This document shows positions 7,951 to 21,524 of a stretch of DNA of 47,606 nucleotides, piece after piece. The notes beneath the pieces are model-generated. The model had not been told where the DNA came from. It saw nothing but the letters and a program-made list of their open reading frames with translations, and ran no database searches. This DNA is from Prochlorothrix hollandica PCC 9006 = CALU 1027 (GTDB taxonomy: Bacteria; Cyanobacteriota; Cyanobacteriia; Prochlorotrichales; Prochlorotrichaceae), in NCBI RefSeq assembly GCF_000332315.1, contig NZ_KB235941.1, forward strand, positions 1,233,609-1,281,214, in the 5' to 3' direction. Within the stretch, counting starts at the first letter, position 1. Each line of letters opens with the position of its first letter. The position numbers and the translations under genes are program-made.

Positions 7951-8637
7951 TCACTGCACAAAATGGTAAGGGGGCAGCGGTTCACTGAGGAGTAAGTCCC
8001 ACTGCGTTGCTTCCCCCTGCCACTGGTTCACCTGTTTCTGCAAATGGCTCGATCGCCGTTGCCCCACCAGCAGATAAAACCGCTCCTGGCCATCCTGGGC
8101 CTCTCCCTGGCGCATATCGGGATAGATCCGCTGGATTGTGGTTATCAGGGTTTGCAGTTGGGCCTGTTGCTGGTTTTGGCGATCGCCCAAACTTTGGTAT
8201 TGCTGCTTTTTCGCCCGGAAATAATCCCGCCCCTTGAGGGGTTGCTCCGGGGGGGGGCTGGGTTCTAGCACCGGCTCCAGGGGTTTGGGGCTACAGCGCA
8301 GAATATACTCCACTTTGCCCGCTAGAACTTGGAGGCGATCGCCGTAGGTCTGCCGCTGTTGCTGGAGGTGGTTCAACAAGCCCTCGGTGCTGTGGAACTG
8401 GGTCCCAAACTGGAGGGGCAACAGCACGCTTAGTTGAAACAGATCCTGGATGACGCGATCGTGGGCCACCACTGCCCCCACTAGGGCTTGATCATCGTTT
8501 TGGATGCTGTCTAACTTAAAGTCCGGCTCCACCACTGCCCCCAACTCCCCATCCCCCACCCAGGTCAAAGCGCCCTGAATGCCCTGGGGCAAGGACAATG
8601 GTTCCGGGGGGTGTGGCAAAAAGGCAAAGGTATACAT
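7951..8637 (-). CDS. gvpF: Gas vesicle protein GvpF/GvpL family
   Basis: The 228-aa protein begins MYTFAFLPHPPEPLSLPQG and ends with the family hallmark WDLLLSEPLPPYHFV. The middle contains the characteristic AVVAHDRVIQDLF and VLLPLQFGTQF segments. GvpF/L proteins are minor gas-vesicle assembly factors that interact with the GvpA shell protein. Size and motifs fit GvpF. No other gvp gene lies in the window, so this copy is separated from any main cluster. Its ATG is only 6 bp from the end of element A3, so the native promoter and leader have been replaced by, or start within, the element. An insert rich in Pro and Gln (residues about 115-165) lengthens the middle. Confidence 0.9.
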   Translation of the reverse strand: MYTFAFLPHPPEPLSLPQGIQGALTWVGDGELGAVVEPDFKLDSIQNDDQALVGAVVAHDRVIQDLFQLSVLLPLQFGTQFHSTEGLLNHLQQQRQTYGDRLQVLAGKVEYILRCSPKPLEPVLEPSPPPEQPLKGRDYFRAKKQQYQSLGDRQNQQQAQLQTLITTIQRIYPDMRQGEAQDGQERFYLLVGQRRSSHLQKQVNQWQGEATQWDLLLSEPLPPYHFVQ

Positions 8638-8643
8638 GGCAGG

Positions 8644-8886
8644 GTAACTATTCAGGGGGGGACGAAGTTAGTAGGGTTTCAGCTTACTGGGGAACCCTCG
8701 ACCTCGGGTAGGGGTCGCGCCCCCGTGCCGACCCTCTTGGGGACCCACAGCCGGGGCAACCACGGGGGGATTGCCCCTACCCAAATCGGGGAATCTGCCC
8801 AGGTGAAATAGACCCTCTCACATCGCCTCAGGTCTGTTTTCTGAAGCCTGAAACCCTCATTCTCCCGTGACCCCCTGAATAATTAC
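8644..8886. mobile_element. Family A element, copy A3 (243 bp, internal deletion)
   Basis: The ends GTAACTATTCAGGGGG and CCCCCTGAATAATTAC match A1 and A2, with about 40 bp missing internally (the segment after GGGTTTCAGC). The outer 9-mers CATGGCAGG and TTAAAACCC do not match, so no target duplication is visible. This suggests age or recombination between two copies. It sits exactly between the gvpF start and the parB-like stop. Confidence 0.8.
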
Positions 8887-9657
8887 TTAAAACCCTGACC
8901 AAGTATCAATAATTTTAAGCATTGTTTTGTCTCCCAATTTATCGGTACGGCTGACTACATCTGTAAAGGAATCAAAGGGAGATGTCTTACGGGCGTTGAT
9001 GATGTTCTTCGTCAGGTTCTCTAAGGTCTTACCTGGGATTCCAGCTTTCTTTAGGGCTTTAAAGAGATCTACCTCAGAAAGTTGATTAAACATATCTAAA
9101 GGCTTAAGCTTCGAGGACATATGACCTTCGATATTTGCCACCTTATTTTGTAGGTAATCAATATCTTTTTGGTAGGATACTTTGAGATCTCGGATATCTT
9201 GATCATGGCGAGTTTCTAAGTTAGAAATCCTTGCATTTAATAATTGTAAGACATCATTATTTATCGGTGCAGAATTTATCGGTGCAGAATCCGTAAGTGC
9301 AGAATCCGTAAGTGCAGAACCTGTCAGTGCAGAATCCGTCGGTGCCGAAGTCATTGAACCCGACATCAGACGGATTTGTGCGTTGGCAGCTTCAACTTTA
9401 TCTGCTTCAATGACAAACGCATCAACCATTTCAATCTCTGCATTAATTTCACTGGCTCGCATACCGGCATAGTAGCCTTCTTCCCCTGAAATAATCCTAT
9501 AGCTTTCAGGACCAGTAGCTTCCAAAACAAGAGGTTGTAGCAGGGATCCCGTTTCAATCAAGTTGTGAGCCAGATCATCAATACGCTGAACATTAAACTG
9601 AGATCTTGGAGTTGCGCATTCAATGCTTTCAAGATCAACTAGGTAAAATCTAGGCAT
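8887..9657 (-). CDS. ParB-like protein with HhH-like C terminus
   Basis: The 256-aa protein has an N-terminal ParB/Spo0J-type domain (LVDLESIECATPRSQF, LIETGSLLQPLVLEATG, YRIISGEEGYYAGMRA). The canonical GERR motif used for CTP binding in classical ParB reads GEEGYYAG here, so the CTPase function may be altered. Residues about 103-136 form a Ser/Ala-rich linker of five-residue repeats (ALTDS, APINS) coded by 15-bp DNA repeats (about 9263-9350). A coiled coil (about 137-185) and a C-terminal helical domain follow; IINARKTSPFDSFTDVV with LGDKTMLKIIDTW resembles a helix-hairpin-helix, a DNA-binding motif. The ATG overlaps the TAA of the upstream ParA fusion by one base (TAATG), implying translational coupling. 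Low GC and few HIP1 sites suggest transfer. Confidence 0.72.
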   Translation of the reverse strand: MPRFYLVDLESIECATPRSQFNVQRIDDLAHNLIETGSLLQPLVLEATGPESYRIISGEEGYYAGMRASEINAEIEMVDAFVIEADKVEAANAQIRLMSGSMTSAPTDSALTGSALTDSALTDSAPINSAPINNDVLQLLNARISNLETRHDQDIRDLKVSYQKDIDYLQNKVANIEGHMSSKLKPLDMFNQLSEVDLFKALKKAGIPGKTLENLTKNIINARKTSPFDSFTDVVSRTDKLGDKTMLKIIDTWSGF

Positions 9658-11252
9658 TACGAATCTCCAATTTTTTCTAAAACTTCCATAGCTAAATTTC
9701 TGAAATCCTGGGCTGATTTGGATGTTCCATTCTTGTACTTAAAGACCGACTGAGGCTCTGGAATTTGGAGATTTCCAAAAATCTGAATCTCATTGAGACA
9801 ATTAGACAATTCGGAGAGTTCGGAAATGATAGTCTCCATGACGGGCAACTCATAGTTTTCAATGACCCTATCAACTTGACGAGGAAATGTATGCTGTCGG
9901 TATTTGGAGTTGCCAAGAATCTTTGATGGCAAAACTCCTAAGATTTTGATATCACTCTTTCCGATCTCGTTACGCACTGGGTTTATTTCATTATTAATGA
10001 AATCTTTGACATTTTTAAGACCTTGATTAGCAAATGGCTTCATATCAGACGGAATAATTAAGTAGTCCGCAGAAATGAGAGCAACCTCTGCATAAATATC
10101 ACGGGAAGGAGGAGCATCAATGATAACAATATCATAGAGATCACTAACAGCCTCTAGCTTCCTCAGGAGACGAAAGCGACTGGTGGCAAATTTCGTCAAC
10201 TTTTCCTGTTTCTCAATTAAAGTAATATGGGATGGAATCACATCAATTTCTGGCAAGTTAAATCCATCTGATTGACGAACTACATCAGGAATAAAATGAG
10301 TTTTTGACTTTTCCAATAAATGATAAATATTATTGTTGACAAGATTGTCATCTTCTTCAAATTGAAACTTGATCAGTCCTACGGCAAAGGTGGAGTTAGC
10401 CTGGGCATCAACATCCACGAGTAAAACCCGGCGACCCTGGTTAGCGAAGGCCGCTGCTAGGTTTGTGGAAACCGTGGTTTTGCCCACACCCCCTTTGTTG
10501 TGATAAATGGTAATAACTTTCATAGACGGGGAAACGATCTCCTGGTGAGATATTGCTGAAGACACTGGACTAATAACCGTAGTTTTAGGAGCTACGATCG
10601 GCTCCGGATCTAGAAGTCCATCGGACCCAGCCTCAGGTACCTCTACGATCGTTGGCTCCGTTGACTCCGCAGCCTTGGCAGCATCTGGGGAGACCATAGC
10701 AGACAAGGGAGCACCTGCGTTATCTACGGCAGAACTTGATGCAAGCTTTGAGTCTGAGGTCAGGGGGTTGGGTGCCCAGCCCAACCGTTGCCGCATGTGA
10801 TCTCGGCCTATGATCGATCGCAATTCTTCGATGCGATCCTTCACCTCATGACCCGTACAGGAAAACACCAAACGGGTTTGCTGATCACGTCGTTCATAGA
10901 CCCGCACCTCTCGACCATTGGTGAGCAACCCATAGGGTACCCGTAAATTGGCTAGGTACTGGTGCTGTATTTTCGATGCGTGGCGATCGAGACCTTGGTG
11001 GGGAGCCTTAGCCTCAATCACTAAACCGAGGGGTTCCTGATTGCCTAGGGTTCGGGGCAAGACTCGCGCTGCAAAAGCCAGGAAATCTAGCCGAATCTGT
11101 CCACCGATCGCCACTTCCTGATACCACGACCAGCGATCGTACCCCAAAGCAGGCAAGAGGTAACCTACAATAAATTTACTCTCCACCTCGGCCTCATTAC
11201 GACAGAGGGCTGGATCAAAATCTGAAGTTGGCAGAGGGTTCATCAATATCAT
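9657..11252 (-). CDS. HsdR-N-type nuclease domain fused to ParA-like ATPase
   Basis: Residues 10-155 match the type I restriction HsdR N-terminal (PD-(D/E)XK) domain: [20 protein letters not shown], then RLDFLAF with D56 and [10 protein letters not shown] with E80 and K82, all catalytic positions retained, followed by [16 protein letters not shown] Ser/Pro/Ala linker (about 165-242) leads to a ParA/MinD ATPase. It shows the deviant Walker A KGGVGKTT (253-260), [12 protein letters not shown], and the Walker B-like [11 protein letters not shown]. At 531 aa it is about twice a normal ParA. In ParA proteins ATP-dependent DNA binding drives cargo partition; the nuclease-fold domain could cut or bind DNA. 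It is coupled to the ParB-like gene by a one-base overlap. The N-terminal part is GC-richer than the ATPase part (by eye), as if two sources were joined. No SD-like sequence decides between ATGs at 11252 and 11243. Confidence 0.85.
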
Positions 11253-11294: not shown

Positions 11295-11578
11295 TACAGC
11301 AACTCTAAATCAGTTGTAAGGATCTCGATCGCCGAAAGCCCTGGTGTGGTCTATGCCCAGAGAGCACACCCCCCACGACCGGGCGCATGTCAGGGTTGGG
11401 GGGGTGCATCGTAGGGGCGAAGCATGGGCGCAGGTATTCTCTGGGTGATCGCCCCAAGTTTTGCCGCCCATGCTTCGCCCGTACCCAAAATGGGGGCGTT
11501 GACCTCCCCTGATTTCAATCCGATCCTGCCCCCCCAATGACGAGATGCGCCCCCCAGGACCCATTGCGGACTGCTGTA
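11295..11578. repeat. Family B repeat, copy B1, interrupted by element C1
   Basis: The left end TACAGCAACTCTAAATCAGT (from 11295) and right end GGACCCATTGCGGACTGCTGTA (to 11578) are the two halves of a diverged family B repeat. About 170 bp of family C sequence separates them. B1 lies between the nuclease-ParA gene and the five-TIR gene. Confidence 0.7.
11381..11552. mobile_element. Family C element, copy C1, inserted in B1
   Basis: The ends GGGCGCATGTC and GAGATGCGCCC are inverted. The flanks CCCACGACC (11372-11380) and CCCAGGACC (11553-11561) match at 8 of 9 positions, consistent with a 9-bp target duplication. Inside, perfect 16-bp arms GGGCGAAGCATGGGCG / CGCCCATGCTTCGCCC (11415-11430, 11465-11480) enclose a 34-bp loop. 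In copy C2 that loop is in the opposite orientation. Confidence 0.7.
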
Positions 11579-11614: not shown

Positions 11615-14600
11615 CTAGGGGTTCCGGAGGCGCTGGGTGAGTCCGGCCACCCCCAGCCCAGCCAACCCCATCGCCAGCAAAGGCGGCACCCACGGCAACC
11701 AGCCGCCACTGGCCACCAACACCCCATAGCACAGCGCCGTTAGCCCTAGCCCCAATGCCACACCCCCCAACAACCGCTGCCCCAGGGGAGACACCGCCCA
11801 GACCCAGACAGCGGCAAGGCTAGCCCAGAACCCGATCCAGAGACTTTCCCAGCCCCAGTTCCACCACCAGATCAGGGGACGATCGTCCAGCACCGCACTA
11901 ATCAATTGACTCGCTAATTGGCCCTGGACATAAACCCCCGGCAGTTCCCCCAGGGGAGTGGACCAAAAATCACTGGTGGGATCGGCCCGATCGCTGAAGC
12001 CAATCAAGACCAAGCGATCGCGGAATAACGAGTCTAACTGCGCTGCTGTTAGTTCTCCCGTCAAAACTGCCTTGAAGGAAACACGGGGGGCAAAATGGAG
12101 GGGTGCCGAGGGCAGACGGCTATTATCCAGGGAAGGGGACGATCGGAAATTGACCATCATCTGATAACCCTGGAGCAAGTTCATGTCCCGATAACCGCCC
12201 CCCCACACCCACAGAGCAGGCAGCGATCGCGGACCCAGGGTCATGATTTTGGCCAAATAGACCTCTCCCCCCTCCTCGACATAGGGAGACCCATAGCCCT
12301 GGCCCTCAGCTACCAGAAAACGCTGAGCTAACACCAGACTAAAAGCTTGATCCACAGGGCAAAATTGCTCATCAGGCAGCTTCAGCAGATAGTGACGGCG
12401 GATCATCTTTTCCCCATCTTCCGAGAAATCGGAAAAGCCCACCCGCTGAGCCACCGCCACCGCCGGGACTTCTGGGGGGGGACTATAGCCCTCCACCGGT
12501 AACCCCTGCTCGTCAACGGTGCTGCCCTTACAGAGCATGACCAAGTTATCCATGGTTTTGAGGCGATCGGCCACCACAGACTGGGCTTGGAAATCCCGGT
12601 AAAAGTCCAAAGCGAGAACCCTGGGTTCGTGACGGGCCACAGTGTCCAGTAAATCCGCCAAGGCTGCATCGGGAATGGTGCCTAAGCCCGGTTGATAGCG
12701 TCCTGCAATTAACTGACTGCGGAGCCAGCGGGTACTGGCGGCATCCACCTCCACCACCACTAGCCGCTGATCCGGGGGTTCCGAGGGTCGCCACTGCATC
12801 AAGGTATCATAGGCCCGCAACTCAGCCCCCTGGGTCGCCCCCAGTAGTCGGGCCACGATCACCACCACCGTGGCCACCACCGTTGTGCCCACCAGGGATT
12901 TCAGGCTTAAGCGACGATGGGGCAACCGACGACTAGCCGTCAGGTAGGCTTCCTGTAGGGCCGTTGCCTTGGGGCTGCGTTTCTGGGTCTCCTGCAACCA
13001 CTGTAGGGCTTGGCTTAAGTCCTTACCCCGCAGAAGAAAGCCATCATCCCGCCCCGACTGTTCCCATTCATTGGCTTTGACCAGCAAACGGGTATGATTT
13101 TGGATGTAGAGGGGATCACTGGCTAAGAACCGTACTAATTCCCCGAAATTGGAGAGAAAGTCGCTGCCACGACGACGGAAGTCAATCCATTGCACCGTGG
13201 CAATGGCGGGGTGGAGGGATGAGGGGGGAGCCTCCCGATGGAGCACTGCCACAAACCGTTTATTAAGCTGGCTAGCATATTCAATTTCAGCGCTGGCATA
13301 GGGAGATGAGACGGAACTAGGGGAAATTATAAAAAGAAAGTTTTCAGAATTTTCAATCCCTTTATAAATCTCCGTCTGAAAGTCCTTGCCCGTATCAATA
13401 TTTTCCTGATCAAACCAGGTAAACATGCCCTGGATTTGTAGGTTTTCATTTAATTTACGGGCAAAGTCAGCATCCGCACGGGAATAGGAGATGAAAACAT
13501 TAAAGGTTTGGTGGGGGGGTTGTTTGCGGCTTTCGTCCAGAAATTCGGCTTGGGCAGCTACTAAGGAATAGACAGTATTTTGCTTAGCGATCTGATACCA
13601 GCTTTCCATTTGGCGAAGACCATAGCCCCGCAGTAAAATGCTAGGGTTCCGCTGTTGCCGTTGCCACTTTAGGGCTTGGGTCAAGAGCATCTTATGTTGG
13701 TAATGGTAAGGAGCGTTATTCTGAACTTCTTTAATCAGTTTATTGATAGCGATGTCATAACTAGTGCCATTCTCCCATTGACTAAAATCAATGAATTGCA
13801 AAGCCCGAATATCTTCGGGAATATAGGTGAGATCGGTGGAGCTAATTAAAAGGGGAATAATACGTTTTTTGAGGGAATAACCATAGGCCACGACCTGTTG
13901 ACAGTGGGGGGAAGCTACGGCTTGGGGGGAGATCAGAACCACGATGTTATCGGCTTCCTCAATGCCCCGATCGATCTGATTTTGGAACTCTGTGCCCCCT
14001 GCCAAATCGGTTCGGTTGATCCAGACCGTAATGCCTTCCCGCATTAAGCTACAGTGAATTTTCTCCCGGAGATCGCGATCGGTCTCTGCGTAGGCAATAA
14101 AGACCTGGGTCATCAGGTTATTGGCATTTTTCAGACTTTCGCAAATAAATTCACACTGGAGACTCGTTGGCAGGCAGGGGGGTTGGCGATCGGTAAATTG
14201 GGTCTTCAGCCAGCTTTCAGCGGTTTTGAGCTGATCCCCCGTTAATAAATAGCGGGTCTGGCACTGGTGGCGTTGCCAATCCATGGCCCGACAGAGTAAT
14301 TCGGTGTGGTCATGAACATAGTCGCGATCGCGGTCCAGCAGGGCCAGCAACCCCCCAAAGGAAGCCTGATCATCATCCATACCGGGGCGAAAATAAATCC
14401 AGTTAACTTTGCCAATGCTCACCGGCATCTGGGGGAAAACAGAGTGTTTACCGGCGGCGGTGTAGGCCAGCCAATCCTCTGGGGTGCCCTGGGGGTGGCG
14501 CTGTTGCCAAGTGTCATGGCTAATTTCCTCCACATGTAAGAGGGGAATGATGCGCTTATTCCGCGCCACGGCCAACTCAATTTCTTTGGCACAGTAGGGG

Positions 14601-16126
14601 GAATTGACGGAGTGGGGGGAAATAATATAAATAAAGTTGTCGGATTTGTCTAATCCATCATTAATCTGATCCTGAAAATCGACACCGAGGGGGATATCAT
14701 TTTGATCAAACCAAACCCGATAGCCCGCTTGACTGAGGCGATCGTGGAGATCAAAGGCAAAATCTTTACTGTCAGCGCGACCATAGGAAATAAAGGCATC
14801 GAAAAATTTGTTTTTCTCCCGACTCCCCGCCACATAATCATCCTGGGTTAGGATCAGGGGCAATAGATCGGGGGCATGATCAGCAGGTTGCTGCTGTTGG
14901 AGCTGGATCCAATGCTCAGCCACAGCCAACTCATCGGCCCGCAATAATAAACCCTTGGGCCGTTCCCGTTGATCCCAGTGCAGGGCTTTGACTAGGAGGG
15001 TTTTGTGCCAGTAATCATAATCCTGGTGGCGTTTGAGGGTTTGGAGTAAAGTATCCAGAGCTATGGCGTAACTTGCTGGGTCGCTAAAGTTTTGATTGTT
15101 AATAAATTGCAGCGATCGCTGATCCTGGGGAATCTGTTCCAGGGGTACATCAGCCATCAGCATGGGAATAATGCGCTTGTTTAATTGGCGGCCATAGGCC
15201 AGTTCCTGTTGACAGTAGGGGGAGGCCAGGGAATGGGCGGAGAGTAGATACACCAGGGTATCGGCCCGTTCAATGCCTCGGCTAATCTCCTGTTGAAAAT
15301 CAGCCCCGGTGCGAATATTAGCCCGGTTTGTCCAGACGGGCATCCCTTCCCGCAGCAAACTCCAACGTAGCGTCTCGGTAATGTCTATATCCTGTTCGGA
15401 GTGGCAGAGGAAAACACGGGTTGCCCCTCCCTGGGCTTCTGATAAACTGGTGCAAATATACTCGCTGTGGCGATCCGTTGGCTGACAGGGGGCTTGTTCC
15501 GCCGTAAACCGCCGCCCTAGCCATTGCTGGGCTTGGTGTAATGCCTCTCCCTGCAACAGATCACTGGGCTGCTTCTGGTGTTGTGCCCAGTGGTTAGCCT
15601 GCACGAGGAGTTGGGTATGCTGTTGCACATAGTCCCGTTGACGCTCTAAGGTTTGGCTAATGGTGACCAAACTGGACTCGAAATCATCGATGCCCTCCCG
15701 ACAGTTCACCCAGTTAATTTTACCGAGGGCTGGGTGTAAATGAGCCAAGCTCGTGTGCCGCCCTGCTTGACGGTACTGGTGCCAGTCTTGATCCGTCCCC
15801 TCTGGATTACGGGCTTGCCAGGTCTCGCGGCTTATCTCTTCCACATGCATCAGGGGAATAATGCGTTTTTTCAACTGTAATGCCAACTCTAGCTCTAAGG
15901 TGCAATAGGGAGAGTTGACGGAGTGGGGGGAAATAATATAAATGAAATTGTGGGCGGCGGTAATTCCCTGATCAATTTGCTGTTGGTAATCAACCCCTGG
16001 GGGAATATCTTCAAAATCAAACCAAAGACTATAGCCTTGATCCGTCAGGCGATCGTGGATGTGTTGAGCAAATTGCCGACTGTCAGCACGTCCATAGGAA
16101 ATAAAGGCATCCTGCAATGGGTTCAT
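11615..16126 (-). CDS. Five-TIR-domain protein with C-terminal CHASE2 and membrane segments
   Basis: The 1503-aa protein has five TIR domains at about residues 5-125, 235-350, 445-565, 675-790 and 875-990. Domains 1 and 3 share DAFISYGRADS and FIYIISPHSVNSPYC. Domains 2 and 4 share a different type (SLLREGMPVW, SLMREGITVW), so two A-B modules are duplicated before a fifth domain (VFISYSRADADF). The NADase-type glutamate follows SPYC in domains 1, 2 and 3 and is kept in domain 5 (SPYASAEIE). In domain 4 it is valine (SPHCQQVVAYG). Each TIR is followed by a helical linker (HTxLLxxAxxW...LLxG). A membrane helix at about 1080 precedes a CHASE2 domain (AYDTLMQWRPSEPPDQRLVV), probably extracytoplasmic, and the C terminus has two or three more helices (IWWWNWGWESLWIGFW). 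ATG 16126 is preferred over TTG 16177 because homology starts there. Signalling across the membrane to NAD-cleaving TIRs is inference. Confidence 0.9.
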   Translation of the reverse strand: MNPLQDAFISYGRADSRQFAQHIHDRLTDQGYSLWFDFEDIPPGVDYQQQIDQGITAAHNFIYIISPHSVNSPYCTLELELALQLKKRIIPLMHVEEISRETWQARNPEGTDQDWHQYRQAGRHTSLAHLHPALGKINWVNCREGIDDFESSLVTISQTLERQRDYVQQHTQLLVQANHWAQHQKQPSDLLQGEALHQAQQWLGRRFTAEQAPCQPTDRHSEYICTSLSEAQGGATRVFLCHSEQDIDITETLRWSLLREGMPVWTNRANIRTGADFQQEISRGIERADTLVYLLSAHSLASPYCQQELAYGRQLNKRIIPMLMADVPLEQIPQDQRSLQFINNQNFSDPASYAIALDTLLQTLKRHQDYDYWHKTLLVKALHWDQRERPKGLLLRADELAVAEHWIQLQQQQPADHAPDLLPLILTQDDYVAGSREKNKFFDAFISYGRADSKDFAFDLHDRLSQAGYRVWFDQNDIPLGVDFQDQINDGLDKSDNFIYIISPHSVNSPYCAKEIELAVARNKRIIPLLHVEEISHDTWQQRHPQGTPEDWLAYTAAGKHSVFPQMPVSIGKVNWIYFRPGMDDDQASFGGLLALLDRDRDYVHDHTELLCRAMDWQRHQCQTRYLLTGDQLKTAESWLKTQFTDRQPPCLPTSLQCEFICESLKNANNLMTQVFIAYAETDRDLREKIHCSLMREGITVWINRTDLAGGTEFQNQIDRGIEEADNIVVLISPQAVASPHCQQVVAYGYSLKKRIIPLLISSTDLTYIPEDIRALQFIDFSQWENGTSYDIAINKLIKEVQNNAPYHYQHKMLLTQALKWQRQQRNPSILLRGYGLRQMESWYQIAKQNTVYSLVAAQAEFLDESRKQPPHQTFNVFISYSRADADFARKLNENLQIQGMFTWFDQENIDTGKDFQTEIYKGIENSENFLFIISPSSVSSPYASAEIEYASQLNKRFVAVLHREAPPSSLHPAIATVQWIDFRRRGSDFLSNFGELVRFLASDPLYIQNHTRLLVKANEWEQSGRDDGFLLRGKDLSQALQWLQETQKRSPKATALQEAYLTASRRLPHRRLSLKSLVGTTVVATVVVIVARLLGATQGAELRAYDTLMQWRPSEPPDQRLVVVEVDAASTRWLRSQLIAGRYQPGLGTIPDAALADLLDTVARHEPRVLALDFYRDFQAQSVVADRLKTMDNLVMLCKGSTVDEQGLPVEGYSPPPEVPAVAVAQRVGFSDFSEDGEKMIRRHYLLKLPDEQFCPVDQAFSLVLAQRFLVAEGQGYGSPYVEEGGEVYLAKIMTLGPRSLPALWVWGGGYRDMNLLQGYQMMVNFRSSPSLDNSRLPSAPLHFAPRVSFKAVLTGELTAAQLDSLFRDRLVLIGFSDRADPTSDFWSTPLGELPGVYVQGQLASQLISAVLDDRPLIWWWNWGWESLWIGFWASLAAVWVWAVSPLGQRLLGGVALGLGLTALCYGVLVASGGWLPWVPPLLAMGLAGLGVAGLTQRLRNP

Positions 16127-16130
16127 GGCG

Positions 16131-16166
16131 AAGTTCCGAAGCAAAGTTCCGAAGCAAAGTTCCGAA
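16131..16166. repeat. 13-bp direct repeats at the start of the five-TIR gene
   Basis: The unit AAGTTCCGAAGCA occurs at 16131-16143 and 16144-16156, with a partial copy at 16157-16166. It lies just upstream of the chosen ATG on the minus strand. If the TTG at 16177 is used, the repeats are translated. Confidence 0.75.
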
Positions 16167-16970
16167 AGGAGTGACAAACCTAACGCCAGGAGCCAGCGTC
16201 AGGTTACCTCTAGGATACGTTAGTGGGAGGACAGAGGATGGACATATTACGAGGATTTAAGATTCTCTGGGATCATCGGCCAAACCTGAGGCGGGACAAC
16301 TAGGACACCAGGGCGCAAGTTAGCCTATTCTTCAAAATTCCAGCGTATCGCAGGATCGATCGGTCAAAAGAGTGGCCCAAAAAGAAAGGGGGACGACAGG
16401 AGGTTAACCCAAGCCAACCCCCTCGACGACGGGGTGTGAGGAGTTTTAAGCGGTGGCAAGCCAGACCGAGAACAGATTCTGGTAGGTTGGCTAGCAGGTT
16501 GGCCAGCAGGTTGGCTAGACGATCGCAGCCCATCAGTAGCCCTAGGCTAACTCTCCCTGGAACAGGATCAATTGCCCAGCCATAGATCGATCGGGCTAGC
16601 AGAGTCGGATCGGGGAAAAGCAGAATCAGAGCAGCGTATTCAGAACACTGTATTCAGAACGAAAGCGAGGGATTCCCCGACCCAGGGCAAGACCCATATC
16701 GCTGAGTTGACTAGCCTACTGGGTTGACTTTGGCGGTTGACTTTGGCGGTTGACTTTGGCGGTTGACTTTGGCAGTTAGTGTGAGCAGTGACTGTGAGCG
16801 GTTAATGAGAGGATCGGTTAATGGGAGCGGTTAGTGTGAGCAGTGACTGTGAGCGGTTAATGGGAGGATCGGTTAATGGGAGCGGTTAATGAGAGGATCG
16901 GTTAATGGGAGCGGTTAGTGTGAGCAGTGACTGTGAGCGGTTAATGGGAGGATCGGTTAATGGGACCCGT
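16167..16970. other. Intergenic region with several tandem arrays, no clear gene
   Basis: It holds three 12-bp AGGTTGGCTAGC units (16484-16519), then the arrays listed at 16724-16968. A 77-aa minus-strand frame at 16300-16533 is low-complexity over the 12-bp repeat and is not supported. The region should contain the promoter of the five-TIR gene, but no clear -10/-35 stands out. Confidence 0.55.
16724..16968. repeat. Compound tandem array (13-bp units, then about 55-bp higher-order units)
   Basis: Four copies of TTGACTTTGGCGG (from 16724) pass into a higher-order array of about 55 bp. That array is built from GCGGTTAATGGGA, GATCGGTTAATGGGA and GTGTGAGCAGTGACTGTGA blocks and repeats to 16968. 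The motif GGTTAATGGGA recurs at short regular spacing. The array ends a few bases before the stop of the 93-aa gene. Confidence 0.85.
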
Positions 16971-20269: not shown

Positions 20270-20312
20270 TGCGCCTACCCATCGTCTATCCATTTATGCT
20301 ATCATGGTTAGC

Positions 20313-21524
20313 ATGAAAGTACGATACCAGTATCGAATTTATCCGACACCGCAACAGGTCAAAGGGCTGAATCAGCTTTTTGGGTGTTGCCGAGTTGTGT
20401 ACAACGATGCCCTGGCGATTGTGCGGTCAGTGCCGCAGGGCGAGAAATGGCCCAGCAATGCTGAACTGCAAAAGCTGGTGATCACTCAGGCCAAAAAGAC
20501 GGCTGAACGGAAATGGTTGGCCGATGTGTCAGTCGTGCCCTTGCAGCAGTCGGTTCAGGATTTAGGTGTTGCCTTCAAGAACTTTTTCGAGAGCCGTAGC
20601 GGTAAACGAAAAGGGCCAAAGGTGGGCTTCCCTCGGTTCAAAAAGAAGCTGAACCAACAGTCGGCACGGTTTGTTCGGACGGGATTCTCCCTCAAGGGCA
20701 ATAAGCTTGAACTGGCCAAGTTAGGCCGCTTCAAGGTGAAGTGGTCAAGGCCACTGCCCTCTGAACCTAGCTCTGTGACCATTATCCGTAACACGGCTGG
20801 ACAATACCATGCCAGCTTTGTCGTGGAGATTGGATCCATCAACATTGAGCCACTACGGCCCTCAATTGGGGTAGATCTAGGCATCAAAACCTTTGCCTTT
20901 CTCAGCACAGGTGATCGGGTAGAATCCCCTGGATATAATCGATTAGACCGCAAGACGCGACGGTTTCAGCGCAAGCTGGCCCGCCAAGTTAAAGGGTCTA
21001 AGCGTCGCGAAAAGACTAGGCTGCGCCTTGCAAAGCTGAAGCTAAAAACGGCCAATATCCGAAAAGACTTTCTGCACAAGACCACGACCCAGCTCATCCA
21101 CGAAAATCAAGTGGTGGTGTTGGAGGATCTGGCGGTGAAGAATATGCTTGGTAATCGGAAGTTGGCACGGGCTATCAGTCAGCAGGGTTGGGGCACCGCA
21201 CGAACTATGTGTGAGGCCAAGGCCAACAGGGTTAATGATCGAGAGGTCAGGATCATCAGTCGGTGGGAGCCAACCAGTCAGATCTGTTCTGATTGTGGCT
21301 TTCGTTGGGGCAAGGTTGCTCTATCGGTTCGTTCCATCCTCTGTGTGAGTTGCGGCACCGAACATGATAGAGATGGTAATGCCGCCAAAAATATCGAAAA
21401 GTCTGGGTTGGGGCTAACCCAAGACTCTAAATGGACAAGGAACGGGCGTAAGACCAGGATGTCTGGCAATCCGACTGCTTTGTCTAGCCAGCCGTACAGC
21501 GAACAGCTTGGACTATTCGCCTAG
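20313..21524 (+). CDS. tnpB: TnpB RNA-guided nuclease (IS605/IS1341 family)
   Basis: The 403-aa protein (from MKVRYQYRIYPTPQQVKGLN; a further ATG lies at 20304) is full length for TnpB. The N-terminal HTH region, the RuvC segment IGVDLGIKTFAFLSTGD (first Asp), VVVLEDLAVKNML (Glu) and the C-terminal CSDCG...CVSCG zinc ribbon followed by EHDRDGNAAKNI (last Asp) are all intact. It therefore should be a functional RNA-guided DNA endonuclease, the ancestor type of Cas12. In such elements the guide (omega) RNA is made from the right end overlapping the tnpB 3' part and reads into the flanking DNA after about 21562. Few frame-breaking changes suggest recent acquisition. Confidence 0.95.
   Translation: MKVRYQYRIYPTPQQVKGLNQLFGCCRVVYNDALAIVRSVPQGEKWPSNAELQKLVITQAKKTAERKWLADVSVVPLQQSVQDLGVAFKNFFESRSGKRKGPKVGFPRFKKKLNQQSARFVRTGFSLKGNKLELAKLGRFKVKWSRPLPSEPSSVTIIRNTAGQYHASFVVEIGSINIEPLRPSIGVDLGIKTFAFLSTGDRVESPGYNRLDRKTRRFQRKLARQVKGSKRREKTRLRLAKLKLKTANIRKDFLHKTTTQLIHENQVVVLEDLAVKNMLGNRKLARAISQQGWGTARTMCEAKANRVNDREVRIISRWEPTSQICSDCGFRWGKVALSVRSILCVSCGTEHDRDGNAAKNIEKSGLGLTQDSKWTRNGRKTRMSGNPTALSSQPYSEQLGLFA

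Follow-up and report, generated by a model that had tools for sequence, protein, structure and literature searches.

A predicted nuclease fused to ParA and encoded with a ParB-like partner in Prochlorothrix hollandica and other cyanobacteria

The operon in Prochlorothrix hollandica

The stretch of DNA analysed here, called the window in what follows, comprises 47,606 nt and lies within a 1.36-Mb contig of the 5.6-Mb genome of Prochlorothrix hollandica. It contains, on the minus strand, a two-gene operon in which the gene for a fusion of a predicted nuclease with ParA (of the type designated A) comes first and the gene for a ParB-like protein next; the two overlap by 1 nt in a TAATG motif. Direct reading of the junction (...gga gat tcg TAATG cct...) bears out the stop/start overlap noted in a preliminary description of this DNA, which had also given the coordinates, lengths and strands of both open reading frames correctly. 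The parts of the operon are listed here with the evidence for each.

9657..11252 (-): nuclease-ParA fusion, 531 aa, type A (open reading frame; HSDR_N_2 and AAA_31)
10758..11252 (-): predicted HSDR_N-type PD-(D/E)XK domain, aa 1-165 (HSDR_N_2 matches in homologues, residue conservation, AlphaFold core)
11085-11087 (-): codon of D56
11013-11015 (-): codon of E80
11007-11009 (-): codon of K82
10527..10757 (-): disordered linker, aa 166-242 (pLDDT ~30)
9660..10526 (-): complete ParA ATPase with KGGVGKTT Walker A motif, aa 243-531 (AAA_31, E 4e-51; Soj/ParA fold)
9655..9659 (-): TAATG stop/start overlap (sequence reading)
8887..9657 (-): ParB-like partner, 256 aa (ParB_N, 29.8 bits; ParB/Noc/Srx fold)
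9355..9657 (-): ParB-like N-domain, aa 1-101, with GEEGYYAG replacing GERR (profile, alignment; pLDDT >85 over most of it)
9252..9364 (-): 15-bp tandem repeats coding for a (TDSAL)n linker (repeat search; absent from aligned relatives)
9118..9258 (-): long coiled-coil helix, aa 134-180 (AlphaFold)
8893..9102 (-): predicted helical HhH-like DNA-binding end, aa 186-255 (family profiles, AlphaFold)

No terminator was found for the operon in a sequence scan of the window. Intergenic inverted repeats flank it at 8644-8886 (39-nt arms, 74% complementary) and 11411-11484 (20-nt arms, 95% complementary); these may be MITE-like elements or terminators. Directly downstream of the ParB-like gene lies a GvpL/GvpF gas-vesicle gene (7951-8637, minus strand), and directly upstream of the operon a gene (11615-16177, minus strand) whose 1520-aa product combines five TIR domains with a CHASE2 domain and is matched by PADLOC TIR models. 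An IS605 OrfB/TnpB-type transposase with a Cas12f1-like domain is encoded at 20304-21521 on the plus strand.

Domains of the two proteins

The assignment of the N-terminal region of the fusion to the PD-(D/E)XK nucleases, judged by profiles and conservation, is above chance. When taken in isolation, the domain from the window matches Pfam HSDR_N_2 with 25.7 bits (E 1.3e-5; cut-off 25), and within the full 531-aa protein it scores 22.9 bits, which is under the cut-off; among 28 homologous nuclease domains HSDR_N_2 is matched by all, HSDR_N by 27 and Cas4 by 9. A failure of this region to match PD-(D/E)XK profiles, which the preliminary description had named as evidence against its reading, thus did not occur, and its view of the open reading frame as an HSDR_N-type domain joined to a complete ParA agrees with the Pfam matches. 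In an alignment of type-A homologues the residues D56, E80 and K82, said earlier to be retained, are each invariant (48/48); so are E20, E22 and K26 (likewise 48/48), as well as N19. The core modelled by AlphaFold has the order helix-strand-strand-helix-strand (residues 20-35, 60-63, 75-81, 89-103 and 107-111), with low confidence for the loop around D56. A sequence search of the PDB with the nuclease profile gave no meaningful match, and in a fold search with the whole fusion protein the matches are dominated by the ParA part.

The same architecture, an HSDR_N-like nuclease joined to ParA and followed by a ParB-like gene, occurs in at least four divergent types (A to D). The D...ExK residues are kept in 48/48 proteins of type A, 25/25 of type B, 19-20/20 of type C and 3/3 of type D; since similarity between the families is hardly recognisable, this conservation favours an active nuclease over a vestige.

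The ParA part consists of the C-terminal 289 residues and is complete, as had been proposed: it matches AAA_31 with an E-value of 4e-51, its deviant Walker A motif KGGVGKTT is conserved in homologues, and its best Foldseek matches are ParA/Soj proteins (TM 0.88), with McdA also among the fold matches.

The partner exceeds the Pfam cut-off for ParB_N (29.8 bits; cut-off 26.3), as do all 50 family members compared, and in fold searches ParB/Noc proteins come out on top (E ~2e-3, probability ~1.0), accompanied by sulfiredoxin-like proteins. Where ParB has GERR it reads GEEGYYAG, and the loss of that motif, already described for this protein, extends to its family: the P-motif arginine is present in 0/50 homologues with a readable motif, GxxE is present in 44/50, and the consensus is GxxEYYAA. 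In the ParB-fold proteins examined by Kaljevic et al. (2025, PMC12704722), nucleotides were no longer bound once this arginine had been replaced with alanine; canonical CTP gating of the partner is, by analogy, unlikely. Neither Pfam nor the structure model revealed an HTH in the partner, and the C-terminal dimer domain of ParB is missing as well; instead, AlphaFold places a 47-residue coiled coil before a helical end of DNA-binding type. The HhH-like character claimed for this end is supported at the level of the family (HHH_6 in 27 of 50 partners; best E-value for HHH_3, 1e-12). In other relatives the HhH end is exchanged for Rho_N, SAP or HeH, and such replacement of one nucleic-acid-binding module with another suggests that the end simply holds DNA. 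The repeat linker noted before does exist, as a microsatellite-like 15-bp array at 9252-9364, but it is peculiar to this genome, unseen in aligned relatives and not a feature of the family.

Distribution, nuclease loss and exchange

Type A was found in about 57 of 386 sampled cyanobacterial genomes (~15%; 58 matches at E<=1e-30, one of which, G185, turned out to be type B), with the partner gene nearly always following it. The best 80 loci from 84,980 genomes are all cyanobacterial, and 71 of them have the fused gene and the partner. The type is chromosomal, many matches lying on single 4-7-Mb contigs, and no fused type A was present on 72,556 plasmid (PLSDB) or 50,697 phage (INPHARED) records. 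Type-A neighbours vary between lineages and are alike within families, which points to long residence, and the locus is common to several families; types A and B, seen on chromosomes only, look partly vertically inherited. Homologues confined to plasmids beside parS arrays, the other finding named beforehand as contrary to the preliminary description, are therefore not what is seen.

In about 20 of about 84 type-A ParAs the nuclease is absent, the open frames being too short, and the ParB-like partner is retained. In a tree of type-A ParAs the unfused proteins are nested among the fused ones, which requires at least six changes (support is weak in places); the neighbours of the ParA from the window are two unfused proteins. 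That the pair has outlived the nuclease several times implies that ParA and ParB serve some purpose of their own. Borrowing of a nuclease from type B or C by genomes with unfused type A was considered and dropped, as the genome of the window and the g29 genomes have a fused type A plus type C. In one genome (G121) a DNA2-like helicase is split over two frames: its C-terminal half is fused to the type-A ParA, and its N-terminal half, encoded just upstream, has a weak match to MTES_1575/DUF559-type nucleases; here the type-A nuclease may have been replaced by a nuclease-helicase, or, the helicase being interrupted, the copy may be broken or mis-sequenced. In another genome a fused type-A gene has a second, unfused type-A ParA directly upstream (L081:8060-11443, minus strand), perhaps a duplication.

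Type B proteins comprise ~500 aa and type C proteins ~450-470 aa, and their ParB-like proteins often end in a Rho_N/SAP-like motif; by counts from match lists they occur in ~16 and ~36 of 301 genomes, respectively. The genome of P. hollandica also has a type-C pair, on the same contig 0.38 Mb away (L459:4757-6816, plus strand). Chromosomes carry types A, B and C, plasmids types C and D, the latter in Pseudanabaena, Leptolyngbya and Nostoc. Nostoc sp. UHCC 0870 (apparently G042, with which it agrees in the contig coordinates of the type-C matches) has type A on the chromosome, type C on two plasmids, each with a ParM/StbA gene besides, and type D on another plasmid next to a canonical ParA/ParB pair; the module is thus not the only partition system of these three plasmids. 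A complete type-C nuclease-ParA with its partner is also encoded on a 58-kb IMG/VR contig (L311:6004-8027, plus strand), which could be a phage, a phage-plasmid or a plasmid.

In Nostocaceae, type A or type B is often flanked on one side by the gene for a core cyanobacterial ParA, which adjoins ileS, and on the other by a shared gene set; in relatives with neither type the site is empty and the locus otherwise similar. Within one genus, a type-A locus (G167/L085) and a type-B locus (G488/L214) have flanks that are 91-96% identical, whereas the operons between them are unmatched at the DNA level; the same pattern, with flanks weaker on one side, is seen within another genus (G471/L222 with type A, G480/L206 with type B). 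Among 145 Nostocaceae, 64 have type A, 12 type B and 1 has both, as compared to 5.3 expected (P 0.007, uncorrected for relatedness). Whole modules that replace one another as alleles at a fixed site are well known among restriction loci and other loci of conflict, a parallel that falls short of proof. Beside the Nostocaceae locus there is, apparently, a multi-nuclease FtsK cluster (L227:9938-15642, minus strand), encoding a ~870-900-aa 3'-5' exonuclease/PDDEXK_1/FtsK fusion, an AAA_16 ATPase and a ~280-aa protein; it was considered as a third allele of the module and dismissed, as it can stand next to A or B.

With the window protein and the nuclease and partner profiles as queries, no type-A nuclease-ParA was found on viral contigs, and one ORF with the ParB domain was. 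This 101-aa ORF (L205:7983-8288, plus strand), the single case of a lone type-A ParB-like domain among the IMG/VR contigs, is 73% identical to the host version in L105 (G251) and is flanked by copies of a 146-nt repeat that contains a TTGACA/TATACT-like promoter; the contig, probably that of a cyanophage, also has genes for head morphogenesis, endolysin and thymidylate synthase (ThyX). A type-A-like ParB domain (E 8e-10), without the arginine, is further present in ORF27 of Anabaena phage A-4L (L460:4975-10128; PDB 9k3a), a 1717-aa "tail protein" whose gene adjoins that for an "internal protein"; proteins of this kind may be injected. The two cases would both fit ParB-like domains acting as decoys; phage ParB-like domains can also have functions of their own (PMC5512222).

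Relation to known systems and possible function

ParA/ParB pairs are textbook DNA-segregation machines. The module resembles ParABS systems (Soj/Spo0J, SopAB) in its complete Walker-type ParA and in the overlapping downstream gene for a partner with ParB_N fold; it differs by the nuclease on ParA and by a partner without the GxxR arginine, the HTH and the C-terminal dimer domain. In addition, no canonical parS was seen within 3 mismatches in the 47.6-kb window (the scan covered the canonical motif), and plasmid copies coexist with another partition system. With HsdR of type I restriction-modification it shares the N-terminal PD-(D/E)XK family (HSDR_N_2, HSDR_N), but ParA stands in place of the SF2 helicase motor, there being no motor domain in the 531-aa ORF, and the conserved unit is two genes without HsdM or HsdS. 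As defining features of both ParABS and type I restriction are missing, it is assigned to neither; by its sequence, the module is best described as a nuclease-armed relative of ParAB modules. McdAB, which positions carboxysomes, likewise pairs a cyanobacterial ParA-type ATPase with a dedicated partner, but McdB is not ParB-like and McdAB is without a nuclease. The likeness to Wadjet/MksBEFG (JetABCD), a known plasmid-restriction system (PMC10586767, PMC10123090), lies in the working principle only, an ATPase that sits on DNA and is linked to a nuclease; Pfam and PADLOC revealed no homology to SMC, kleisin or JetD in the two proteins. ParB-CTPase-fold fusions (PMC12704722) and GmrSD (PMC4619093) likewise exemplify reuse of the ParB/Srx fold outside partition, sometimes with nucleases; in the survey of the former by Kaljevic et al. 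(2025) only DUF3850 fusions lie consistently beside parA (PMC12704722), whereas in the present module it is ParA that bears the nuclease, and the ParB fold is without the nucleotide arginine. PADLOC-DB 2.0 yielded generic P-loop matches and no listed system. No description of the module was found in the open-access literature searched, and it is apparently undescribed there.

Judged by its domains and distribution, the module seems better suited to guarding against foreign DNA by cutting it than to segregating chromosomes, and we give a role in DNA restriction or competition between replicons an even chance. The sequence shows a PD-(D/E)XK domain with conserved catalytic residues that is tethered by a flexible linker to ParA, and a ParB-like partner that is translationally coupled. 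In such a scheme, ATP-bound ParA dimers would sit on DNA, and the ParB-like protein, kept there by a DNA-binding end without sequence specificity, would meet ParA via its N-domain and switch the ATPase; this encounter would license the tethered nuclease, which would probably be a dimer, to cleave whatever DNA is perceived as foreign, be it plasmid DNA, phage DNA or a rival replicon. As chromosomes and plasmids both carry versions of it, the module may serve host defence as well as inter-replicon competition. A role in conflict is favoured because A and B cassettes are swapped, the four types are divergent and a probable phage encodes a ParB-domain fragment; the swaps, the presence of types C or D beside ParM or ParAB and the possible phage decoy speak for it over partition. 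The conserved active-site D, E and K, the exchange of DNA-binding ends between HhH and Rho_N/SAP and the nuclease-helicase in G121 also count in its favour. The anti-plasmid or anti-phage device suggested in the preliminary description gains from these points; against it, and against restriction in general, count that PADLOC lists no such system, that PADLOC families are not clearly more frequent among type-A neighbours at <2.5 kb than among those at >5 kb (with kinases, the FtsK gene and a TnpB-like transposase inflating the near list), that about 20 of about 84 ParAs are without the nuclease, and that the chromosomal loci are syntenic. More doubtful is the further-reaching view that the module is a DNA-restriction machine of a class of its own, with a tethered nuclease gated by a ParA ATPase cycle that a CTP-blind adaptor sets off, at least four exchangeable types and phage decoys that are expressed or injected.

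It is conceivable, if rather unlikely, that the operon is a segregation or nucleoid-organisation module whose ParA gained a nuclease for resolving DNA tangles or concatemers, with the ParB-like protein as its non-specific DNA adaptor. A complete ParA encoded with a ParB-like protein would suit such a role, as would the chromosomal location and synteny of type A within families, the persistence of the pair where the nuclease has repeatedly gone missing, the core ParA and FtsK-nuclease genes adjoining the Nostocaceae operon, and the plasmid location of types C and D. However, type A is found in only ~15% of genomes and is missing from close relatives, the partner is without HTH, no canonical parS was seen in the window, and the P-motif arginine is gone in every homologue read; three plasmids with type C or D have ParM or ParAB in any case, and A/B swapping would be unexpected for a housekeeping function. 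A positioning role of McdAB type, with a protein or organelle as cargo and the PD-(D/E)XK domain serving as a tether to DNA instead of cutting it, is improbable: the positioning of carboxysomes by ParA-type ATPases in cyanobacteria (PMC6328274), the McdA fold match and the gas-vesicle gene next to the operon are in keeping with it, but a mere tether would not need the catalytic D, E and K kept in four divergent families, the partner has DNA-binding ends, and the GvpL/GvpF gene belongs to no conserved neighbour cluster at other type-A loci. That the operon goes back to integrated plasmids, as a partition locus that passed to the chromosome and is now drifting, is most improbable in spite of types C and D on plasmids, as type A is never found fused on PLSDB plasmids, its locus is common to several families and its residues are strongly conserved over divergent lineages.

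A nuclease conserved in the ParA of four families, together with a partner that appears to make no use of a canonical CTP pocket, points to a ParA switch rebuilt for another task. If that task is restriction or replicon competition, the module would extend the range of DNA-cutting systems and might account in part for barriers to plasmid uptake in cyanobacteria; nature provides unfused, fused, A/B-swapped and empty-site relatives as well as a possible phage decoy, which make the question testable.
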